A stretch of DNA of 64,000 nt from Hydractinia symbiolongicarpus. Taxonomy: Eukaryota > Cnidaria > Hydrozoa > Anthoathecata > Hydractiniidae. The notes under the pieces were generated by a model. It was not told the origin of the DNA and ran no database searches. It saw only the letters and a list, made by a program, of their open reading frames with translations. Below, piece by piece: positions 4,841 through 64,000 of this stretch (position 1 is its first letter; the number at the start of each line of letters is the position of its first letter). The stretch lies in the NCBI RefSeq assembly GCF_029227915.1, contig NC_079879.1:15004001-15068000 (forward strand), given 5' to 3'. The position numbers and the translations under genes are program-made.

Positions 4841-5662
4841 TCATTTTCTTTTTTCAACTTTTTTGATTAACTTCCATCTCAATCTTTATTAAGATGTATT
4901 ATAAGTAAGGTATTTATATATAAAAAATTTAAATAAATAAGCAACTTACCCCCACTTCTAGCCTAATATTAAGTAAATACCCCATTTCTAGCCTAATATT
5001 AAGTAAACACCCCTTTTTCCATTTTACTGTCATTTTGACCGGTAGATATACATGTATATTTATGTATCTGATTTGATTGATTCACTCATTCATGGTTTGG
5101 GTATGAAACTCTGATCCTTGCCATGTTTTTATTCATTCATTCATGTTAGATTTAATTTGTCCATGGTTCCATTTCATTATATTTTTGAAATTTTTGTTAA
5201 TAGTTATGAAGAAAGAAGATTTTGATTTGGTTATATTTTTAATAACCTCCAATCTGCAAAAAACATTATTTTGGTGCTGAATATGAAGAAAGAAGAATGA
5301 AGATTTTAGTTATTGCATTAATAACTTTCAATCTATAAAAAACATTATTATGGTGTTATGCTGTCTTATTGCTGGTTTGATTACAACCTTGCTAATAAAT
5401 ATTGTAATGTATTTTATGTTGTCATTTATTCCCCCGTTTTGATCAATTGTTCAGAATACTTAACGTGTATCGTGTATCTTAGAGAGTCGGTTTTATGGCG
5501 TTTTAGTGCTTAAAGGGCGTAAAAGGGCGTTGGCTTTCAGGGCTCCGCCCTGTACCCGTTGGGGGGCTCACAACGCCCCCCAAACCCCCAGTTGTCTAAT
5601 ATCGCACCTTCGGTGCTATGTTGACCCTGCGGGTCAATGCTTCGACTAAGGTTAATTTTTTT

Positions 5663-13024: not shown

Positions 13025-13591
13025 GCGAATTCCTGGGCATACGAACAAAGCGCTTGTAGGGACAAATTTTTAGCTTGTTTTTGTGTGACTCGATAGCCCA
13101 GTCAAGTTTCTCAGTCACTTTCTCACAAAGAATTATTTGTGTTGTACGTAGAAAGGCGGAGAAATGTGTAACCTTTTGTTGTTTCTTTCCAATTCTTTGC
13201 TTTTTATACTAACGTTTAACTTTTAAATAACGTGTTGAAATGGTGCTGCTAGTCCTCTCTATGGTATATTAACTAAAACAAGAACAACTTACAATTATTA
13301 ACTTTTACAAAGTTCAAAGCTGGATGATGGTAAGGGTATTCTTAGCTCTGTGTCTGCAGAAGCAATGAGCCTGGACTGAAGTATCTATAAGAAATTACAT
13401 GACGCACTGCTACATATTACACATCTTTTCCTTATAATCAACCTTCATCATGTGAATTAAATATATAGCTATAGCTAGATGGCTGAAAACCACCATATGT
13501 TTAACAATGTAATATGGTGGTTTTAAACGTAAACCATTTTTTAAATATAAACCACCATATGTACAACAGTTGGTAGAGCAGTGTTTTAAGA

Positions 13592-15222
13592 TGTTAAAAA
13601 ATAAGAACGACAAAATCTACGACATATCCAAATATATCTTTCAGCAAGCTTTCGCCAACGGCCAGGTTGGCATGTTCACACTGTTTCTAAATTTTATTTT
13701 ACAAGTTAGAGATAAAATACTAAACAAGATATAATAGGAAGAAAATAGAGCTATTATAGTAATTCTAAAGGCATAGATTTTACCGTGTTATTTAAAATGG
13801 GACAGTCACGCTCAATTAGTAAGCTCTCCATCAGAGTAAGTTTAAAATCTTTAGACTCTTCCGCAAGTACTGAGAAGTTGTGAAACGATGCTTGAGAGTA
13901 ATTACAAAACATTAAATGTTCAAGAACGGCACTGGCCTGGGGACCAGGTTTAACGCGTTTACCTGTAAGTGCAGAAATACCTAAATGCTCAGACATACGG
14001 ACTTTAAAATGGCGTTTTGTTTTGCCATAATAAGTGGCGTTGCAGCCACTACACTTAAAACAGTAAACGAGTCCGGAGCGTAACGATTCGGGTATTCTGT
14101 CCTTAAAGGCAAAGCAGCTACGTAGCCTCCTCTTAGAAAAAAATATAAGTTTAACATTACAATGTGCCAGTTTCTGCTTAAACAAACGGTGCAAACGTGT
14201 TCTAATTTGTAAGGTAATCTTTCCTAAAAAAGGTAAAGCAAGGACTAACTCTTTCTTAGGAGCAAGGGACACTTGTTCCTTCGGTTCGTAATTTCTGCTC
14301 TTGAAAATTCTGAGACAGAATTCAAAAACCTTTGAAGGGTATCCATTCCTTCCAAGAATAGTCTTCAACTGAGATATTTCTACATGAAATTTATTAAGGT
14401 CTAAACACAGATGGTAACAACGATAAAGTAAAGAAAAAATCAAGCCGTGTTTATATTCCATGGGTATGAAACTAGAAAAGTTAGTATAAACTCCACTAAA
14501 TGTTGGTTTCCTATATACGTTGGTGACAAAAGAATCACCTTCACGCATGACGCAAACGTCCAAGAATGGCAAAACCTTATCACATTCTTCTTCAAACGTG
14601 AATTTAATATTCTGGTGCCTAGAATTAATATATTCATAAAAATTTTGAATATGCTCACGTGATTCAAATAAAACAAAAATATCATCAACATATCGTCTAT
14701 AATAGATCGGCTTAAATTCAGACGGACAATTTTCAAGCCAAATGTTTTCATAATGACACATAAAAATATTGGCCAGTATAGGCCCTAACGGAGACCCCAT
14801 AGCCACACCGTCAATTTGCTTATAATATACGCCGTTGAAAACAAAAATAGACTCGGTAGTCGCTAGAGTAAGAAGATGTTTCAAATCTTTCTTAGGAATA
14901 CCATCTATAGAATTAGATTCTATCTCATTGATAATAATATCAATCGTTTCATGTAATGGAATATTCGGAAAAAGTGAATTAACATCAAAACTAGCCATAT
15001 AACAGTTAGGATTCTGCTGAACAATTTCAGACGCAAAACTGAAGGAGTCTTTCACGGTATAGTCATTGATAGTGAGACTTACAAGCTTAGGTACAAGAAA
15101 CTTTGCAAGCTTGTACGTGGGAGTACCAATAGCAGAAAGAATAGGACGAAACTTGGGTACGCCATTAACACAAGGTTTATGTACCTTGGCTAGACCATAC
15201 AAAACACCAGGATTGGACCCAC
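13592..15222. repeat. Left arm of a 1.63-kb inverted repeat formed by two Penelope-like copies
   Basis: This segment matches the reverse complement of 16267-17898 almost perfectly, including the non-coding 3' tails. The visible protein difference is Tyr to Phe in the GIY-YIG region (NATYYGKT versus NATYFGKT). The spacer is about 1.04 kb and holds the 5' part of the minus-strand copy. Confidence 0.9.
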
Positions 15223-15730
15223 TGGGACAAAGTTTCTTGTACGTAGTTTCATCGATATAATTATTGTTTAATAAAGATCTATAGGATTTCCTCAATCTAT
15301 TTTCTATATTAATTATATAATTAATGTCCTTACCAGGAGGAATGTTCAATTTAGCAAATTTTGTATCATCATCGAGAAGGGACTCAACAGCTAAAATATA
15401 ACTATCTTTGTTCAACAATACTACTGTGTTTCCTTTATCAGCTTTTTGTATTACGATATCATCACGATTCATGAGGTCTTGTAATGCTTTAAACTCATTG
15501 GCAGGAAGGCTGGGCTTCTCTGGATTACTGTTGTACGAGTAATAAGATGAAAAGGCAGTATCTTTCAGTCTTGTTTTTATGTAGTTTTTGTCTTCGTTAG
15601 ACAGGTCGTCTCTGTTGATATCTCTCATCAAAAGTTCGAAAGGTACGAGATAGCTTGCATATTCCAACTTCTTTGGGGGGATAGCGAAATTTAGTCCCTT
15701 ACAAAGCAACGATTTTTCTGAGTCAGACAA
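13754..15730 (-). CDS. Penelope-like element ORF: reverse transcriptase + GIY-YIG endonuclease
   Basis: The 658-aa frame shows, in order, an N-terminal region (MSDSEKSLLCKGLNFAIPPK), the DKGNTVVLLNK motif, RT fingers (YGLAKVHKP, PKFRPILSA), SFDVNSLFPNIPLHETIDII with the first Asp, DGVAMGSPLGPILANIFM, the catalytic RRYVDDIFVLF, LPFLDVCVMREGDSFVTNVY RKPTFSG, and a C-terminal GIY-YIG nuclease (CNATYYGKTKRHFKVRMSEH). This is the standard Penelope order; such elements move by target-primed reverse transcription. The main frame is uninterrupted, but the N-terminal extension at 15760-16131 is separated by stops. This copy is the longer of the inverted pair, and it may retain enzymatic coding capacity while lacking an intact full protein. 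Confidence 0.92.
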   Translation of the reverse strand: MSDSEKSLLCKGLNFAIPPKKLEYASYLVPFELLMRDINRDDLSNEDKNYIKTRLKDTAFSSYYSYNSNPEKPSLPANEFKALQDLMNRDDIVIQKADKGNTVVLLNKDSYILAVESLLDDDTKFAKLNIPPGKDINYIINIENRLRKSYRSLLNNNYIDETTYKKLCPSGSNPGVLYGLAKVHKPCVNGVPKFRPILSAIGTPTYKLAKFLVPKLVSLTINDYTVKDSFSFASEIVQQNPNCYMASFDVNSLFPNIPLHETIDIIINEIESNSIDGIPKKDLKHLLTLATTESIFVFNGVYYKQIDGVAMGSPLGPILANIFMCHYENIWLENCPSEFKPIYYRRYVDDIFVLFESREHIQNFYEYINSRHQNIKFTFEEECDKVLPFLDVCVMREGDSFVTNVYRKPTFSGVYTNFSSFIPMEYKHGLIFSLLYRCYHLCLDLNKFHVEISQLKTILGRNGYPSKVFEFCLRIFKSRNYEPKEQVSLAPKKELVLALPFLGKITLQIRTRLHRLFKQKLAHCNVKLIFFSKRRLRSCFAFKDRIPESLRSGLVYCFKCSGCNATYYGKTKRHFKVRMSEHLGISALTGKRVKPGPQASAVLEHLMFCNYSQASFHNFSVLAEESKDFKLTLMESLLIERDCPILNNTVKSMPLELL

Positions 15731-15759
15731 TTTATAAGATGAAAAGTTAAATATAACTT

Positions 15760-16131
15760 TTAAATATCTAAATAACGTTTAAATATCTCTAGATTATTTT
15801 CAAGCACGCGTAACCTACTTCTTTTGGTTTTGATTTCATCGTCAAGTAGCGCTAGTTGACATTTACGATACGCAGTAGAGTTACGAAGATTTCTATTGGC
15901 GACTCGAAAATTTAAGAAATTCGGTGTGACATTGTTTACTTTGCAAGACTCCAAGAATTCAAGATCCAGTTTACATTTTCTTAATTTATAATCACATTGT
16001 TCAAATTTCCTAATGTCCTTCAAAATTGAATTTCCATACCTTTGATTAATAACATTAGCGATAGATTTTGAACGTGGAAACCGAATACGGATAATGAAAA
16101 CAAAAACTAATCCAAGGGCTTTCATGAACAT
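15760..16131 (-). pseudogene. Penelope-like element, N-terminal extension
   Basis: This 123-aa Lys- and Arg-rich frame lies just upstream of the RT frame on the same strand (NVINQRYGNSILKDIRKFEQ, KTKRSRLRVLENNLEIFKRY). Its position and basic, helical character fit the poorly conserved N-terminus of Penelope-like proteins. Stops in 15731-15760 separate it from the RT frame. The assignment is by position; I see no signature motif. Confidence 0.5.
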
Positions 16132-16266
16132 CGTGGGTGAACAATGCTTTTGGAGCGAAGTACAACGTTAATGATTGATAAACGACTTACGGCGGAGATT
16201 GTGAGTTCGGCTTACTGCGTTATCCAAGATGTACTTAATAACTGCTTCGTCGATTAATAATAGTTG

Positions 16267-17898
16267 GTGGGTCCAATCCTGGTGTTTTGTATGGTCTAGC
16301 CAAGGTACATAAACCTTGCGTTAATGGCGTACCTAAGTTTCGTCCTATTCTTTCTGCTATTGGTACTCCCACGTACAAGCTTGCAAAGTTTCTTGTACCT
16401 AAGCTTGTAAGTCTCACTATCAATGACTATACCGTGAAAGACTCCTTCAGTTTTGCGTCTGAAATTGTTCAGCAGAATCCTAACTGTTATATGGCTAGTT
16501 TTGATGTTAATTCACTTTTTCCGAATATTCCATTACATGAAACGATTGATATTATTATCAATGAGATAGAATCTAATTCTATAGATGGTATTCCTAAGAA
16601 AGATTTGAAACATCTTCTTACTCTAGCGACTACCGAGTCTATTTTTGTTTTCAACGGCGTATATTATAAGCAAATTGACGGTGTGGCTATGGGGTCTCCG
16701 TTAGGGCCTATACTGGCCAATATTTTTATGTGTCATTATGAAAACATTTGGCTTGAAAATTGTCCGTCTGAATTTAAGCCGATCTATTATAGACGATATG
16801 TTGATGATATTTTTGTTTTATTTGAATCACGTGAGCATATTCAAAATTTTTATGAATATATTAATTCTAGGCACCAGAATATTAAATTCACGTTTGAAGA
16901 AGAATGTGATAAGGTTTTGCCATTCTTGGACGTTTGCGTCATGCGTGAAGGTGATTCTTTTGTCACCAACGTATATAGGAAACCAACATTTAGTGGAGTT
17001 TATACTAACTTTTCTAGTTTCATACCCATGGAATATAAACACGGCTTGATTTTTTCTTTACTTTATCGTTGTTACCATCTGTGTTTAGACCTTAATAAAT
17101 TTCATGTAGAAATATCTCAGTTGAAGACTATTCTTGGAAGGAATGGATACCCTTCAAAGGTTTTTGAATTCTGTCTCAGAATTTTCAAGAGCAGAAATTA
17201 CGAACCGAAGGAACAAGTGTCCCTTGCTCCTAAGAAAGAGTTAGTCCTTGCTTTACCTTTTTTAGGAAAGATTACCTTACAAATTAGAACACGTTTGCAC
17301 CGTTTGTTTAAGCAGAAACTGGCACATTGTAATGTTAAACTTATATTTTTTTCTAAGAGGAGGCTACGTAGCTGCTTTGCCTTTAAGGACAGAATACCCG
17401 AATCGTTACGCTCCGGACTCGTTTACTGTTTTAAGTGTAGTGGCTGCAACGCCACTTATTTTGGCAAAACAAAACGCCATTTTAAAGTCCGTATGTCTGA
17501 GCATTTAGGTATTTCTGCACTTACAGGTAAACGCGTTAAACCTGGTCCCCAGGCCAGTGCCGTTCTTGAACATTTAATGTTTTGTAATTACTCTCAAGCA
17601 TCGTTTCACAACTTCTCAGTACTTGCGGAAGAGTCTAAAGATTTTAAACTTACTCTGATGGAGAGCTTACTAATTGAGCGTGACTGTCCCATTTTAAATA
17701 ACACGGTAAAATCTATGCCTTTAGAATTACTATAATAGCTCTATTTTCTTCCTATTATATCTTGTTTAGTATTTTATCTCTAACTTGTAAAATAAAATTT
17801 AGAAACAGTGTGAACATGCCAACCTGGCCGTTGGCGAAAGCTTGCTGAAAGATATATTTGGATATGTCGTAGATTTTGTCGTTCTTATTTTTTAATAT
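16267..17898 (+). mobile_element. Penelope-like element, 5'-truncated inverted copy
   Basis: The plus-strand copy starts abruptly inside the RT region at GTGGGTCCAATCC. Its frame (16287-17735, 482 aa) carries RT motifs from YGLAKVHKP through RRYVDDIFVLF and the GIY-YIG domain, where the second Tyr is Phe (NATYFGKT). The 5' truncation is typical of Penelope insertions, as are head-to-head pairs. The domain up to RT motif 2 is missing, so the protein would not be functional. The tail after the stop at 17735 is shared with the other copy and contains a GCCAAC/GTTGGC stem-loop followed by GAAA. Confidence 0.9.
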
Positions 17899-23469: not shown

Positions 23470-26400
23470 TTATTTCTTCATGGCTTTCTTGATTAACGCT
23501 AGACGCTGTAATGAAAAGTTACGTAATAACTAAATGTTTTTAAAAATGACGTGGGTAAATAAAATTTTAAAAAGTTACAACTACAAAATGTGCAAAATTT
23601 ATTAGAAGCAATTGTTGTTTCATTTTATTTCGTTATAAAATTAAAAGATATATGAAGGAAAATTAGAGCTTCGTGTGCAGAGACTTGTTAGAAGTCATTT
23701 TTTGATTGGAATCTATTCTTTGATTGATTTGAATACAAAAAACACTAGGTGTCATTTTTTTCCGTATTTGGGTGTGTTGCCCTGGCTGAAAAACATTTTT
23801 TGCGTTAGAGATGAGCTTTGTGTTGTTTGTCAGTAGCGGTAATTCAGAAAGAAAGTAAAAATGCCTATTTAAATTATTTGTTGTTTTTAAGTAATGTTGT
23901 ATACTCATTACTGAAGTTATTTCAACCCTTGTTGAGTAGAAAAATTTTTATCTTAGGCTTTTTTGTTTATTTAAGTCCAAAAAACACTTTTTATCTCAGT
24001 AAAATTTATAAATAATCGTCACTGATGTCAATATCTTTATCCGCTTCATTTTCTTCATCATCGTTGTTCCGACAAGAGATGGTAAGGTATCGCCAATGCC
24101 CAGCCTTGAAAATGCATCCAATGTGGCATTGTCAGCTGTTATGAAATGGTTCCACCCAGTTGTTTTTGATTTTCCACAAAACCTTCCAGTTTGGTCGCAC
24201 ACCCAGTAAACACGTCAAATGCCAAAAGTGATTTACAATGACTTGGACCAAGATTTTCAAAGAAAGCGTTGACATCGGCATCTCTGCAGTTTATCCCTTT
24301 TCCAGTCCGAAACGTTAGTGCCTAAATTGGAAAATGTATTTTCATCGCATCCTGGAAATATTTAATTTGGAGGAGTTGGTTTGTTGCATGTTGTTGATTG
24401 CATAAATATATCTCTTTGAAACTTCAAACTATCGAGTGTTCAATGTGCAATTGTTGTTGGTCAAGTTAAGTTAGTTGAGTTCTCTGAAACACAACTTGTT
24501 CAGTATCATGAAATTCATGTTTACCATCAGGAGTGTGATTGTTGAAGTCTGTGTTGTCTATTGCGAAATAAATTGGAGTGTTTTCCAAAATGATAGGTGG
24601 AGCATAAAAACCTCTGTTTGTTTCTAAGTAATTGGTGACACAGTTTGCAATATCTGTTTCCATTTGGATCACCTTTTGATATGGAATCGACAGATTCAAA
24701 TTGCTAAGGGTGTTGATTACTTTCTTGCTTTTCGTTTGTTGATGAATATAGAGACCTAAACCTATTGAAAATAGTGTTTCTGCAGTGCTACGAAAGGATG
24801 CGTTAGCAGAATTATAATCAGCTTGTCTCTTTGTTTTTACAGAATTGATGACAATTTCTGCAATTGAACACATTATTTCGGTTTGTCTGTTCAGTATTCA
24901 TATTACTGTGGATCATTTCTTGAAGGACAAAGATATCATAATCCTACCGGCAGAAAAGGGGATAACAACGGTTATCATGAATACACCTGATTACATCGAC
25001 AAGTGCAACGAACACATCAACAACGGGCCTTACAAACTTCTCAAAGAAGATCCTACAGAAGTAATCAAACGAGAAGCAAGAAACATCTTAATGGACTTGA
25101 AGAGAAAAGAATACATCGACTGAAACCTTGTGACGGACCACCACCGCGATTTTACGGACTACCAAAAATTCATAAACAGGGAAATCCAATTCGACCAATA
25201 GTCTCCTGCACTGGAACACCGTTATACAACCTGTCAAAATTTGTTGCTTCTATCCTCAGCAAAGTTACAGCAAGTGACCACAGCAGAAACTCAAAAGAAT
25301 TTTCGGAATACATCAGAGAAATAAAGATAGCAGACGACGAATGCATGGTATCATTTGATGTCACATCACTCTACACAAATGTTCCCATAAAAGACACCTT
25401 AAACATCATTAAAGATCTTATCGAAAACGATGCTGCATTCGGTGAAAAGACCAAGATTCCAGTACCGGATTTTCTGCATTTGGTCGAACTTGTTCTAACC
25501 AAAACATGGTATCTGTTTAATAAGAACTTCTACACTCAAACATACGGAGTTGCTATGGGAAGCCCTGCATCATCAGTAGTCGCAGAAATATACATGCAAG
25601 CACACGAGACAACAGCATTAGTCACATCAGACAGACGCCCAAAGGTTTGGAAAAGATTTGTTGACGACGTATTCGCCATAATAAAAAGATCTCATCTAGA
25701 AGAGTTCCATGAACACATCAACGGCCTACATCGACAAATCAAATTCACTGTTGAGCTTGAACACGATGGAAGTATCGCTTTCCTGGACACTTCGGTCAAA
25801 CGCAAGAATGGTTCCATTTCAGTTTCAGTGTATCGTAAGCCAACACACACTGACCAGTACCTTAACTTCGAATCAAACCATCAGAAATCTTACAAAGAAA
25901 GTGTCATATCTTCATTACTGAATCGTGCCAACAGCGTAGTCAGTGACAAACAGGAGAGAAAAGAAGAAATTCGACGTGTAAGAAATGCATTAATCGTAAA
26001 TGGATACAGTCATAAAGCCATGACGCAAGTAGAAAATAAAATAAAGAGAAAATGCAACGGAGACAACAAGGAAACATCAGAGGAATTTATCGCATCAGCA
26101 TTCCTACCCTTCGTACCAGGTACCAGCGAGATCCTTCGTCAAGTTTTAAGACAACACAAGATCAAATGCATTCTTAACTCTAAAGAGACCCTAAGAAGCA
26201 CCTTGTCTAAACCAAAAGACAAAATAAACCTGGAAGAACAAAGCAATGTTGTTTACGAAATCCCGTGTAAAGATTGTGATGCAGTGTATATAGGCGAAAT
26301 AAAAAGAAAGTTTAAGCAATGAGTACAAGAACATATGCGCGCAGTGAGAAACGGAGATGTGAAGAAAAACGAAATTGCGGACCACAGCTGGAGCAGAAGT

Positions 26401-29400
26401 CATCAGTTTAATTAGGATGAGAAAAAAATCATTGACAGAGGATCCAAAACAACGGCCAGGGAGATTAAAGAAACCATGAACAGTGTAGAACTTAACAAAC
26501 ACATAAACAGCATCCCGTATCAACTTCCTGAGATTTGTTTACCAGCCCTACAGAAGAAGTAGTTACCTAGAGCTCTTAGAGCTTGGTGCTCTTAGAGCTT
26601 GGTTTTCCAACTCTTTTTCCAACTTCAACCATCTTCTCTCTTTTTCAAACTCTAAGAGCTCTTAGAGCTCTTAGAGCTTGGTTTTCCAACTGCAACTGTT
26701 CTACCCTTTCGTTACTTTCCTTCTGTATCGCCTGAATTTTCTGACGAAACAATTTCTCCTTTTCCCATTGTTTAGCTTGAAATTCGTTAATCTTTTTGTC
26801 TTTTTCTAATATTACTTTTTCTTCTTGAGGCATGACTTTTTTAAGCATCGCAATCTGATCTCTCCAATGTTTCTGACATTTGTATCAATGGTCCCTTTTT
26901 TCTTTGGGCACATATCAACTATAAACTTTGGGCCTACAATGATCCACTGTGAAAGCGATCTAAGACTTTCTGGAAGATTGAAGCTAAATTCACCAGTTAA
27001 TTTCCAACTCTCTTGTCGTAAGATATCTTGACGCACCAGTAAAGCAGCATCAAACAATTGATTATAGTCAACAAGTGAATTTCTGTAACTTTTTAAATGC
27101 ATTGTTATGAGCAGCACGTGAACATTTTATTTGAGCTTCTCTGCTAAGATTTGGATCTGGAGAATACAATATTGGTTATTTTATTTGCCAATAATTGTTT
27201 CAGGTATCGTTTTGATTTTAATGGTGATGTATTTCATTCTCTAATAAATTGTTATATGTGGTATTTACACTGTTCATGTCAAGCATTTTTTTCGATTGTA
27301 CATTGTTTATGGCACATTTCACAATGTTTACTATCTCAATGTCTACTACAACCTTTGCGACATCGTTTATCTCTTGTATTCATAATTAATTTCATTCGTA
27401 GATGCGCTAGAAACTTGTCGTTGTATCATAACCCACAATTAAGATGATATTGGACACCATTTGCTACTGCGTCAGCTGCATTTGGAACAGAATTGAGCCT
27501 TTTAAACAAAGTTTGGTCTGGTAGTTGTTGTGCGACATGTAGCAGTTTGTGCCCAGTTGAAAGGACGGCAACCTTATGGAGTTTACCTCCTTCTTTTTAA
27601 CATATAACACAACACTCCTTGTCAAATAAAGTAATTTTAAAGCGTAAAGATTTCGGTTGAGATAATTGTGAATCAGTTATACTGTCATTTGTTGTATTAC
27701 TAGTCAACTTTGGTTCTAGTGATGGTCTTCCTCGTATGGGTGCTGAATCATGTAACTTTTCATACCGTGGTTTCAATCGAGAAATATTTGTTTTATTAAT
27801 TACACTTTCGTAACATTCTTGATGGTAAAAAGCGTTTTTATCAACTAGTGATTCAACTGACAAACTTTCCAAGGTGTCAAAGGATTTAATAAATGTTCGA
27901 TCTTCATAATTGGCTCTTTCAATAAGGCATTCAATTAACTTTTTCATGCTTTCAAATTTTGGAATAGCAATAATCTATGAAAAATGAGAATAACAATTTC
28001 CAAAATAAAATAGCTTTAAAAACCATAAAGCTAAGAATCATTGAAAAAATACAACATACCTTCTTGTTATTGTTCTCTTGACAAACAATGCACTTTTCAA
28101 GCTGAAATCACTACTTTTTTTTCTTTTTTTTGGAGTTTCTTCATTCATATTTTTTAATTAAACTGTGTCTATTCTAATAAAATAAAATTAACGTTACTTT
28201 TACTATTCATAGGAAATCTATCAAAAAAACCACATCATAAAAATATCATACTAAAAATAAGTCTTATGCATCCTTTTAACTTCAACCTGCTACCTCTTAC
28301 TTCAAATTACTAATATAATTTGACAATTTAAACTACTAACAGGTATAAGAAATATGGAACAAACACTGTACATTATAATAATGTCTTGAACGATATAAAA
28401 GAATTTTCAGGGGGTACACTATTACATTAATAACTTCAAAACTGCTATAAAACAAATTACTCTTTATAGAATGCACTTGTCTCATATAACTGTACAGTTG
28501 TAAACAACTATCATTGCAAAACAAAAACATTAGAAATTTAAAACTTAAAAATCTCTGTATCTCTTGAGTGCCTCATTTTAAAAATATAGTTTTTATATAT
28601 TTTTTGTTCATTTTTTATGTTCTGCTATCTTTATATCTGCTGGAAAAGAAAAAGAAATAAAAAATTACAACTTTGATATTTTATTGATCAGAAACTGGAT
28701 GACGTCACCCATGGCCACACCCAGATATGGAAAAAATGACACCTAGAATTTTTTGTATTTAAATCAACTAAAAACCAGATTTCAATCAAAAAATTTCTTC
28801 TAACAAGTCCCCGCACATGAAGAACATAGTGACCCCACTAATATACCAGTTGGATAGCTTAACTTTTTGTGCAGTGTCCAATTAAAATTTTTCCAACAAT
28901 CTTAAGCAACAAAAAAATAACTAACGCGCTGCTATTAGTTGATTCAGTGAAAGTACACTAGTTTCCTACCTGTCTATGCGCTTCTGTAGAGGGTAGTTTC
29001 TTATAAGGACGCAAATCTTCACTGCCATATCCTGGAATCCACATGTTCCAATTTCGATCTAAATAGACAATCAAATGAAACATCAAGAAACAATTTATAA
29101 GCAATTTATCTAGGATTCTGATTAAACTTATTTTGTTACAGTCACCTAAATGCAACTGGACATCTTTTACTTCTACTGTGTTCGACTTTCGGTGCTTAGC
29201 TATCTGACATGACGAGTTGATAACATTCTCAATAAAATCATCAGCAATCTGCAGAAGGACTTCCTCAACATCATCATCCATTGTTTCAGTAGGATCAATC
29301 TCATGCAATAGATCTTGAAGTTTCCGTTTCGTTAAAATTTGACTATGAGATGCAGCTGACGATGAATTGGTGTTTGAAGATTGTGATGTGGACTGTAGTG

Positions 29401-31521
29401 GTAACGATACTGGAAAGTACAACCAAAAAATGTATATCAACTTTATTACCAAACATCATACTTTCAAGGGGCTACGAAACGGCTGTTGGTTTTTGACTTT
29501 AGTGACTTACATGAAAGTCAAGCTAATGGCGGTGGAAAAGTTTATGATCACTAGTAAAAACAAAACCTTAAACCATCTTAAATATCATATTAGGCATCTA
29601 AATATAACTGAAAATGACAGAAAAGCTCCCTACATATATTGAATATCCATAATTTATTCAGTATAAGCACTTGACTTGCTTTTAACTCAAGTTTTTTAAT
29701 AAAAAATATTTTTAAACTAGCTAAGCTGGCCATATCCTTCGAATTTTTGCATAGAAACATACAGGTTTATTACACATAACCAAGTGGAAGCAACAACAAC
29801 AATGACTTTAAAATCTTTTTAGAGGTATTCTTAAAGCTATTAACATAGCATTTTTTAACAACTACAAATCCTCATCCTCATGTTGTCTCTGTTTCCTCGT
29901 CAAAACAAACTTTCGACTTCCTGATATTTAATATATTTTACAGACCATAGCTTATTTTAAAATACTGAAGTTTGCAAACTATCATAAAAAAAGGTAATTC
30001 ATAAACAGGTCTGTTTATTACACACCATTCTTTGGAATGTGCAGGGATTGAGTTTATTGAATTGTTTTGGAGCCCATTAGGGTAAATGAATAATACGAAG
30101 TCATATCAATAAATGGTCTTCAAAGAAGAATGAAACAATTTGCTTTAACATTCAGATCATGCAACTAAAGGTAGAACTTAACAAGAAGGGAATGAAAAAT
30201 TGAGGTCTCCAAAAAATTTTTAGGTACCATGATAAAAATACACTTCATTAAATATGACAAAATTGTTCTGAGCGCTTTATCCTGGAAAAAAAATGTTAAT
30301 TATCAGCAGAGAGAGACTAATTGCATAAATTGTTCGACTCCGTTGTATTGGGGATTGATTTGTGAGAAAAATACTTTGGATTCTAGTCAAACAGTTATAA
30401 TGCTAGACGTCTATAAATTGCCATTGTATTTAACTTGTTAAAGAAATGTAAAAAAACTTACAGTTCCCCTGCTGTACAGCCTTTCCACCTGTGTTCGGAG
30501 AATTCATAGTTGTAGTCGATGCACCTGATACAAAACACTTGGTATCAGAGGTGACGTAAAAAAAAAGGAGAACAAATAAACCAAATAAACAAATCATAAA
30601 GGTAAACATATTTACCATCTGGAAAACGGTTTGTTTTTCCAATATTTTGAAGACGTTGTTGCTGAATGTTTCCTCTAACTTGCTGCACAGCTACTTGATT
30701 TGTTTGCAGCTGATTGACAACCGTGGCTGCATTAGGCGCAATAGATCGGATTTGCATTTGGGCTGGAACACTGTTCTGTGATGGTACACCAACTTGAAGA
30801 TTAGAAGCAACTGCATAAGTTTGACCCCCTGTTGTAATGATATTGATAGGGAGATTCCCTATCCCATCTTGGTGGTGAGTAGCAGAACCTAATGAATAAA
30901 TAGGTGTAGGTGAAATTGTTGACAATTTAAATTGGGTGTAAGATTAGTCATACTATAGTAAATATAATACACTTCTTTTGTATGAGCATTAGGTAAATTT
31001 GAAGTAGGCAATAAGCATGTTACATACGCCTTTTTATCAATACCAATATGCATTTTTTTATTTACTCAGGATCTATTTCTTTTCCTGAATAAAACTAAAA
31101 TAAATTCTTGACACGTTTTTGTACAGAGGCTGTGTCAAATTTGATAAAATTTGTGTCCCAATTACCATTTGTATACCTTTAGCTTTGGAATAATAGCCTC
31201 ATTATGCGTATATAAGCATAAGTTTATAAGAAAAAATAATGCATTGAACGCACCCAACACTTGAACATTTTGCAGGGTGGTAACACCATGCTGATTTCCC
31301 AAAACAACTGGTTGGACCTGTTGAGCTGAAGCCCGTTGTTGAGCTTGTGCTTGCAAAGCAGCAATTTGATGCACATTAATTGGATTTTGCAAAATATTCA
31401 TATTTTGAACAATTTGTTGTCCTGTGTTTTGCACAAGACCCATGCTACCAACCAAAGATATGGGTTGTGATGTTACAGCTGGGCTTGATGAAGTAATATT
31501 TTGCCCGGAGGAAGATGCCAT
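23470..31521 (-). CDS. TAF12: TAF12, TFIID/SAGA histone-fold subunit (six coding exons)
   Basis: Exons, in order: 31521-31254, 30888-30616, 30524-30462, 29409-29146, 29058-28970, 23505-23470. All joins are GT-AG and phases agree (1,1,1,1,0), giving 993 nt, 330 aa. Residues 1-220 are Gln/Asn/Ser-rich low complexity (MASSSGQNITSSSPAV, QIAALQAQAQQRASAQQ, QTNQVAVQQVRGNIQQQ). The histone fold starts near residue 225 (QILTKRKLQDLLHEIDP) and runs through LLQIADDFIENVI and KSNTVEVKDVQLHL, followed by WNMWIPGYGSEDLRPYKK, HRQ and the final exon RLALIKKAMKK. TAF12 pairs with TAF4 in TFIID and with ADA1 in SAGA, in the nucleus. Human TAF12 is about half this length; the extension is upstream of the fold. 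The last intron is 5.46 kb because of a transposon. An AATAAA overlaps the stop codon. A 5' UTR exon may exist upstream of 31549, where an acceptor (TTTAG) precedes the ATG-bearing exon. Confidence 0.93.
24889..26562 (+). pseudogene. Penelope-like element of a different lineage, nested
   Basis: The first frame (24845-25123) has DKDIIILPAEKGITTVIM; after a frameshift near 25120 the RT continues (25003-26322 frame): FYGLPKIHKQGNPIRPIVS, SFDVTSLYTNVPIKDTLNII, YGVAMGSPASSVVAEIYMQ, WKRFVDDVFAIIK, FLDTSVKRKNGSISVSVYRK, then VVYEIPCKDCDAVYIGEIKR. A TGA at 26320-26322 truncates the GIY-YIG nuclease, although its continuation (QEHMRAVRNGD, LNKHINSIPYQLPEICLPAL) is still recognisable to 26562. It differs strongly from the pair at 13.6-17.9 kb and so belongs to another Penelope clade. 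It is inactive. Confidence 0.85.
26565..26695. repeat. GAGCTCTTA-rich short repeat
   Basis: AGAGCTCTTAG is repeated several times, and a longer string ending GCTTGGTTTTCCAACT occurs twice, about 80 bases apart. It sits at the 3' junction of the nested Penelope-like element and extends the transposon protein's coiled-coil frame as ALRALRALR. Confidence 0.7.
29465..29540 (+). repeat. Fragment of the AGGGGCT MITE family in TAF12 intron 3
   Basis: About 70 bases (AAGGGGCTACGAAACGGCTG ... GAAAGTCAAGCTAATGGCGG) match the left end of the 60199-60548 MITE with about six changes. No matching right end and no TTAA were found here, so it is a truncated copy. It lies in the intron between TAF12 exons 3 and 4. 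Confidence 0.7.
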
Positions 31522-62915: not shown

Positions 62916-63479
62916 ACATTGATGAAGCTTTTAGCACTAAAAATCCATGCAAAGTTATACTTTTATAAAGTTAAAACCCTTATTTTGAAAGAAATGCAAT
63001 ACATCGAGTTGTACAATCCGTAGTGTGCGAAAATGTCACGAATTAAGGGGATGCGCATCGTAAGGTACTCTTTCAACCGGAAAATAATACTCGGAACACA
63101 GATAATAATAGAGACTTTCAGAGACAAGAAGGCGCACGAAGCAGCATGTGTTTTTTTTCACTTAAAAATAACGGCACTAGTTATGAAAACCGATTTCTTG
63201 AAGCCAATGAATCTGTTGCAATAAATTTTGTAAACTCACGAGAAACAATAAACAACAAGAAGCCCTGGGGGCTCTAAGAATTTCCGCGCGCTACCAAAAT
63301 ATTTGATGAAAACCTGCTAATTCGTTGTGTTATTGTGCCAAACATTCGAAGGGGTTTGGTGCATGAACCTCTGAAGATAAAGCACACCAGTGACATTATA
63401 TCTTACAACAAACGCAAACAAAACGATTCATGGTTGAAAGTCTTGCGATTGAAACGTTTATGGCCTTAAACGGCATTAG

Positions 63480-64000
63480 TTGACAAAAAATCAAAATTTT
63501 GATGTGACCATCATTTTCAGCATACTTTTTTTATTAACTGTGTCAATTTTTGTCGAAAATAAAGCATTTTTAATTTTTGGATAAATTTTGGCCTGAAATG
63601 ACATTTAGGTGACAAAAAATCAAACTTTTGTACCATAATCATTTTCAGCATACTTAATTTGTTAACTGTGCCAGATTTAGCCGAAAATAAAGTGGTTTTA
63701 ATTTTTGGACCAATTTTGGCCTATAATGGCATTTAGGTGACAAAAATCAAAATTTTGATGTCACCATTATGTTCAGCATACTTTTTTTGTTAACTTTGCC
63801 AATTTTTGTTGAAAATGAAGTAGTTTTAACTTTTGGACCAATTTTGGCCTAAAATGACATTTAAGGTGGCAAAAAACCAAAATTTTGATGTCACCATCAT
63901 GTTCAGCATACTTTATTTGTTAACTGTGCCAAATTTTGTTCAAAATAAAGTAGTTCTAATTTTTGGACCAATTTTCACCTAAAATGACATTTAGGTGACA
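63480..64000. repeat. Minisatellite, about 129-bp unit, four copies and continuing past the window
   Basis: Units begin GACAAAAAATCAAAATTTTG at 63482, 63611, 63739, 63868 and 63997. Each contains CAGCATACTT.TTTTGTTAACTG and ATTTTTGGACCAATTTTGGCC-like blocks with about 10% divergence. Confidence 0.92.

Follow-up and report, generated by a model that had tools for sequence, protein, structure and literature searches.

The 64,000-nt stretch of Hydractinia symbiolongicarpus DNA analysed here (contig NC_079879.1, positions 15,004,001 to 15,068,000 of the forward strand; hereafter the window) includes the TAF12 gene, in whose last intron lies a degenerate DNA transposon. TAF12, recognized by a Pfam TFIID_20kDa match (2e-28), is read from the minus strand: an open frame over the exons upstream of this intron (28970..29455) comprises the histone fold and the exon before donor CAG|gtagg, which follows 28970, and the last exon, ending in RLALIKKAMKK-stop, occupies 23505-23470. 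The transposon spans 23651..28840 (5190 bp), with its transposase on the same strand as TAF12. A first-pass annotation, made by a model from the letters alone, had placed it at 23669..28822 between TAF12 exons, in what was taken for an intron of about 310 bp, and had proposed an undescribed transposon superfamily. The flanking exons and the inverted ends are both real; the limits were too narrow, and the intron minus the element and one copy of its target duplication comes to 271 bp. We are confident that the element is a dead, internally deleted copy of AcademX, the nuclease branch of the Academ superfamily, and most likely not a new superfamily.

Dispersed termini and target site duplications

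An inverted-repeat search of the window at one setting pairs 23669-23760 with 28731-28822 (92 nt, 85% complementary), the second longest of 44 inverted pairs found. These terminal inverted repeats are common to dispersed copies: a genome search with the element's terminus, as the first-pass annotation had suggested, uncovered further copies, with 32 matching places for the left terminus and 33 for the right across 480.9 Mb, two sets that overlap and in which both ends of one copy count separately. Lining up the ends of other copies extends the termini outward to TAGTG(A/G)(A/G)GGTCACTATGTT, which places the window element between TAGTG-like termini at 23651 and 28840. Its terminal inverted repeats lie at 23651..23790 (plus strand) and 28701..28840 (minus strand), with approximate inner limits, the left one being 12 bp shorter than in the copy at locus L010. 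At another locus (L015, G000:C8:10077200-10085500), three right ends spaced exactly 2593 bp apart follow a single left end, the mark of a tandem amplification in which the terminus was included.

The window element is bounded by ATA on either side (23648..23650 and 28841..28843). Flanks were compared for nine copies with both ends readable: the window copy itself and eight found among the 20 fetched regions. Of the other regions, L013 was excluded for an incomplete second end and L020 because its second end matched only weakly, and the rest held a single end only. Aligning flanks, another check proposed at first pass, gave agreement over exactly 3 bp in four of the nine (window ATA, L010 ATA, L012 ACT, L014 TTC) and no 3-bp match in the other five (L009, L011, L015, L016, L028), with terminus letters fixed by eye in each copy and departing from the consensus at the window left end and in L010, L009, L011, L015 and L028. 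Cross-pairings of flanks agreed over 3 bp in 2 of 72 cases. No exact match longer than 3 bp was found in any of the nine copies when checked up to 11 bp, and hence no duplication of 9-10 bp.

A fragmented transposase tied to the inverted ends

The transposase pieces in the window are frameshifted, interrupted by stops and collinear with a 1586-amino-acid (aa) relative, P0048, of which they cover residues 34-214, 228-277, 334-404, 401-546 and 1343-1414; at 1e-4, nothing in the window matches residues 547-1342. All lie on the minus strand. The N-terminal part (27429..27962, residues 34-214) contains YHQEC, CVIC and YHLNC motifs and is followed by residues 228-277 and 334-404 (26857..27379), by a piece with AIDNTDFN and the first conserved D of a DDE-like fold (24436..24864, residues 401-546), and by a remnant of a C-terminal FEN1/EXO1/XPG-like nuclease (24020..24345). 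Only the first-D region of the DDE part is retained. Among the motifs listed at first pass, CVIC, YHxxC (twice) and IDNTDFN are present as described, and GCDQTGRF is present but split by a frameshift. The idea that all 5 kb encode a single multi-part protein was rejected; 24865-26857 is foreign DNA.

Relatives were gathered in two protein-collection searches, which returned 15 and 204 proteins; with the best 120 of the latter, 133 proteins were analysed. Five of the six window pieces match 16 to 77 of these each; the sixth (pF), read in a frame with stops, matches 0 of 133, as do shuffled window pieces. The family is about 1600 aa long and found in several animals. The best match is named Hydractinia symbiolongicarpus and another Clytia hemisphaerica, and named sources comprise two hydrozoans, a sea anemone, a beetle and a sea urchin.

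Where relatives carry names they are annotated as uncharacterized host proteins, as the first-pass annotation had anticipated, and this favours a reading in which the pieces are exons of a conserved host gene beside chance inverted repeats. We regard that reading as extremely improbable and rejected it: the ends match 32 and 33 places, several with the same protein inside, and duplications accompany them. The minus-strand protein pieces of the window are also found in 8 of the 20 fetched regions bearing such a terminus, which upholds the earlier proposal that the inverted ends tie this protein family to a mobile element. The link between these "uncharacterized" proteins and the ends of an element in this genome is new here. 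Members of the family are easily taken for host gene families and are actually tied to a mobile element in which transposase and nuclease are fused.

Predicted folds and the nearest known enzymes

Relatives have an invariant D, D, E, at D509, D680 and E936 in P0032, and an RNase-H/DDE-like fold is predicted for this part; N-terminal Cys motifs are also carried, in some cases with a CXC domain. A Foldseek search with the large DDE model gave no match below 0.001; DDE transposases emerged only on re-inspection, and a family absent from the matches listed may be as near. Among those listed, the nearest solved fold of the predicted DDE part was that of the P element transposase, a likeness that would favour membership in another known superfamily, for example on the P or hAT/MuDR side. 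We consider such membership very improbable. A common fold is not membership, P elements make 8-bp duplications instead of 3-bp ones, and they are not known to carry an XPG-type nuclease; with no 8-bp duplication in nine copies, P-element membership was rejected.

For the C-terminal domain of one relative, a FEN1/EXO1/XPG nuclease fold is predicted, and acidic residues of P0008 (D5, D50, E144/E145/D147, D173/D175, D231) are conserved, equated with those of the known 5'-nucleases by motif order rather than by residue-level alignment. The putative nuclease differs from FEN1, EXO1 and XPG in being fused to a transposase and in sharing only about 10% identity with them; its nuclease activity is predicted.

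Compared with PDB sequences, one family profile (A1) had the CXC domain as its only useful match (lin-54, 5.6e-4; three others above 0.2), and a second (A2) had none. The presumed LIN54 CXC target, TTYRAA, occurs in 20 of 30 ends at about position 59 (shuffles: mean 4.6, maximum 11), an enrichment that is weak since the ends share descent and that was not used as evidence.

Helicase-type elements in the same genome

A Pfam scan of eight window open reading frames detected no transposase, and no Pfam helicase was found in these eight frames or in 15 relatives scanned, the window copy having lost part of its gene. The profile searches suggested at first pass were thus negative for the window itself, but some relatives matched the Pfam family DUF6589, mostly under its cut-off of 27 bits. 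A genome search with DUF6589 gave 101 matches, against 0 in 14 control genomes. The 20 best were mostly frames of about 600 aa adjoining a RecQ-like helicase (helicase motif in 17 of 20), which was encoded on the strand opposite to the transposase in all 15 cases where both motifs were seen; Pfam Helicase_C was found in four of four such loci tested. Both ends of these helicase-type elements, with termini CAACCTCG, were read in five of eight copies tried (in two, one end was not found; in one, the left end was unparsed). All five are flanked by duplications, four of 9 bp and one of 10 bp, and none of 30 cross-pairings agreed at 9 or 10 bp. The group (L034-L054) fits AcademH. One of its members, L054 (G000:C1:30567500-30575000), combines RecQ-like helicase frames with an open frame for a DUF6589 transposase and is flanked by a 9-bp duplication, AGCTAGCTA, although the flank is itself repetitive and a 5-bp duplication fits too.

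The two types are probably linked through a common transposase domain. In a nuclease-type relative, L055 (G000:C2:27294500-27301500), two long frames of 514 and 1063 aa are open; this relative scores 39.2 bits against DUF6589 and matches P0048 at 3e-32, so that DUF6589 exceeds its cut-off in both groups (L055 in one, L038 in the other); P0051 scores 27.3 bits. Three further places have a 1063-aa frame that matches as in L055, one of them with a stop.

Probable placement in AcademX

We take the AcademX nuclease to be of the XPG kind. In the published accounts that bear on this, AcademX duplications measure 3-4 bp and those of AcademH 9-10 bp, in relation to the encoded nuclease and helicase (PMC10045372), Helicase_C and DEAD are among the AcademH domains (PMC10799480), and the mean length of curated bivalve Academ elements is 5565 bp (PMC10294476). 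The window element and its relatives share with AcademX the DDE transposase, the nuclease, the 3-bp duplication and the terminal inverted repeats, and this correspondence, together with the comparison with AcademH, led us to file the element under AcademX. It differs from AcademX in the deletion and the foreign insertion of the window copy. From AcademH it is set apart by a nuclease in place of the RecQ-like helicase, by duplication length and by its termini, although the two types share one genome and their transposase domains are probably related through DUF6589. A literature search on DUF6589, and on Academ with XPG, returned no useful paper.

Three points weigh against this placement. It was made by published description, with Academ reference sequences, and hence the distance to them, outside the comparison; A2, when compared as a profile with four helicase-type transposases (A3), gave no significant match; and several members fall below the DUF6589 cut-off, for which reason our confidence was set slightly lower. 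The last two, along with the DDE model's lack of a Foldseek match below 0.001, would also be expected of an undescribed superfamily that acquired its DDE domain, XPG-type nuclease and 3-bp duplication by convergence. We judge this unlikely, given DUF6589 scores above cut-off in both groups and a published AcademX description that fits on the points tested. The claim of an undescribed superfamily is therefore not supported: the features match published AcademX, and AcademH-fitting elements, probably linked via DUF6589, share the genome. Placement in AcademX corrects a tempting claim of novelty, and the presence of AcademX-type (3 bp) and AcademH-type (9-10 bp) elements side by side offers a natural comparison of accessory enzyme and duplication length.

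In intact relatives, the Cys motifs near the N-terminus and a stretch resembling a winged helix would bind the inverted ends, to which the CXC domain, where present, may add further binding. The RNase-H-fold DDE domain, with its helical insertion, would then cut and join the ends with a 3-bp stagger, and the C-terminal FEN1/EXO1/XPG-type nuclease might trim 5' flaps or branched DNA left by excision or insertion. Decay of the window copy probably proceeded from entry into the last TAF12 intron through loss of the gene middle and frameshifts to a nested insertion of foreign DNA.

A nested insertion of a Penelope-like element and a spliced host transcript

This later retro-insertion (24865..26857, 1993 bp) is bounded by an imperfect 11-bp duplication, ATTGGAGAGAT / ATTGCAGAAAT. 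The 11-bp stretch, found twice in the window, is present once in L010, as ATTGGAGAAAT, and L009, L010 and L012 are continuous across the point at which the window copy is interrupted. The insertion contains, at 24899..26560 (plus strand, ends approximate), what we take from its motifs to be a Penelope-like element, with a frameshifted reverse transcriptase (YGLPKIHK) that matches Pfam RVT_1 at E 7e-7 and 29.5 bits, just below the cut-off of 29.6. Joined to it tail to tail, in opposite sense, is a fragment of spliced FAM76 mRNA (26669..26856, minus strand) in which three host exons (69, 104 and 23 bp, with 94, 98 and 100% identity to the host gene) are fused and two GT-AG introns are cleanly missing. 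The host FAM76 gene lies about 3.5 Mb away in two copies (L032, L033). The fragment begins at an exon start and stops within a later exon, and no poly-A was seen.

A tentative explanation, to which we give about one chance in three, is that the reverse transcriptase of the Penelope-like element primed on each of the two nicked strands and used as templates both its own RNA and an mRNA of the host, all in a single event. This two-template reading is weakened because both ends of the FAM76 mRNA are missing, and template switching and two separate insertion events remain as alternative origins of the joined insertion. Among 12 listed titles of 87 literature matches, none concerned such a junction of a Penelope-like element and spliced host mRNA. 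The nested insertion is, like the link between protein family and termini, new here.

Other repeats in the window

Penelope-like sequences recur at 13591-17898, in a perfect inverted repeat whose 1632-nt arms are separated by 1044 nt and both overlap reverse transcriptase open reading frames of this type; the structure is thus either an inverted pair formed very recently or a fold-back in the assembly. Elsewhere, the same two tandem arrays are present twice (2032-2437 and 4950-5355), at a distance of 2918 bp, suggesting that a 2.9-kb segment was recently duplicated in tandem, and a 128-bp tandem array at 63461-64000 runs to the window end.
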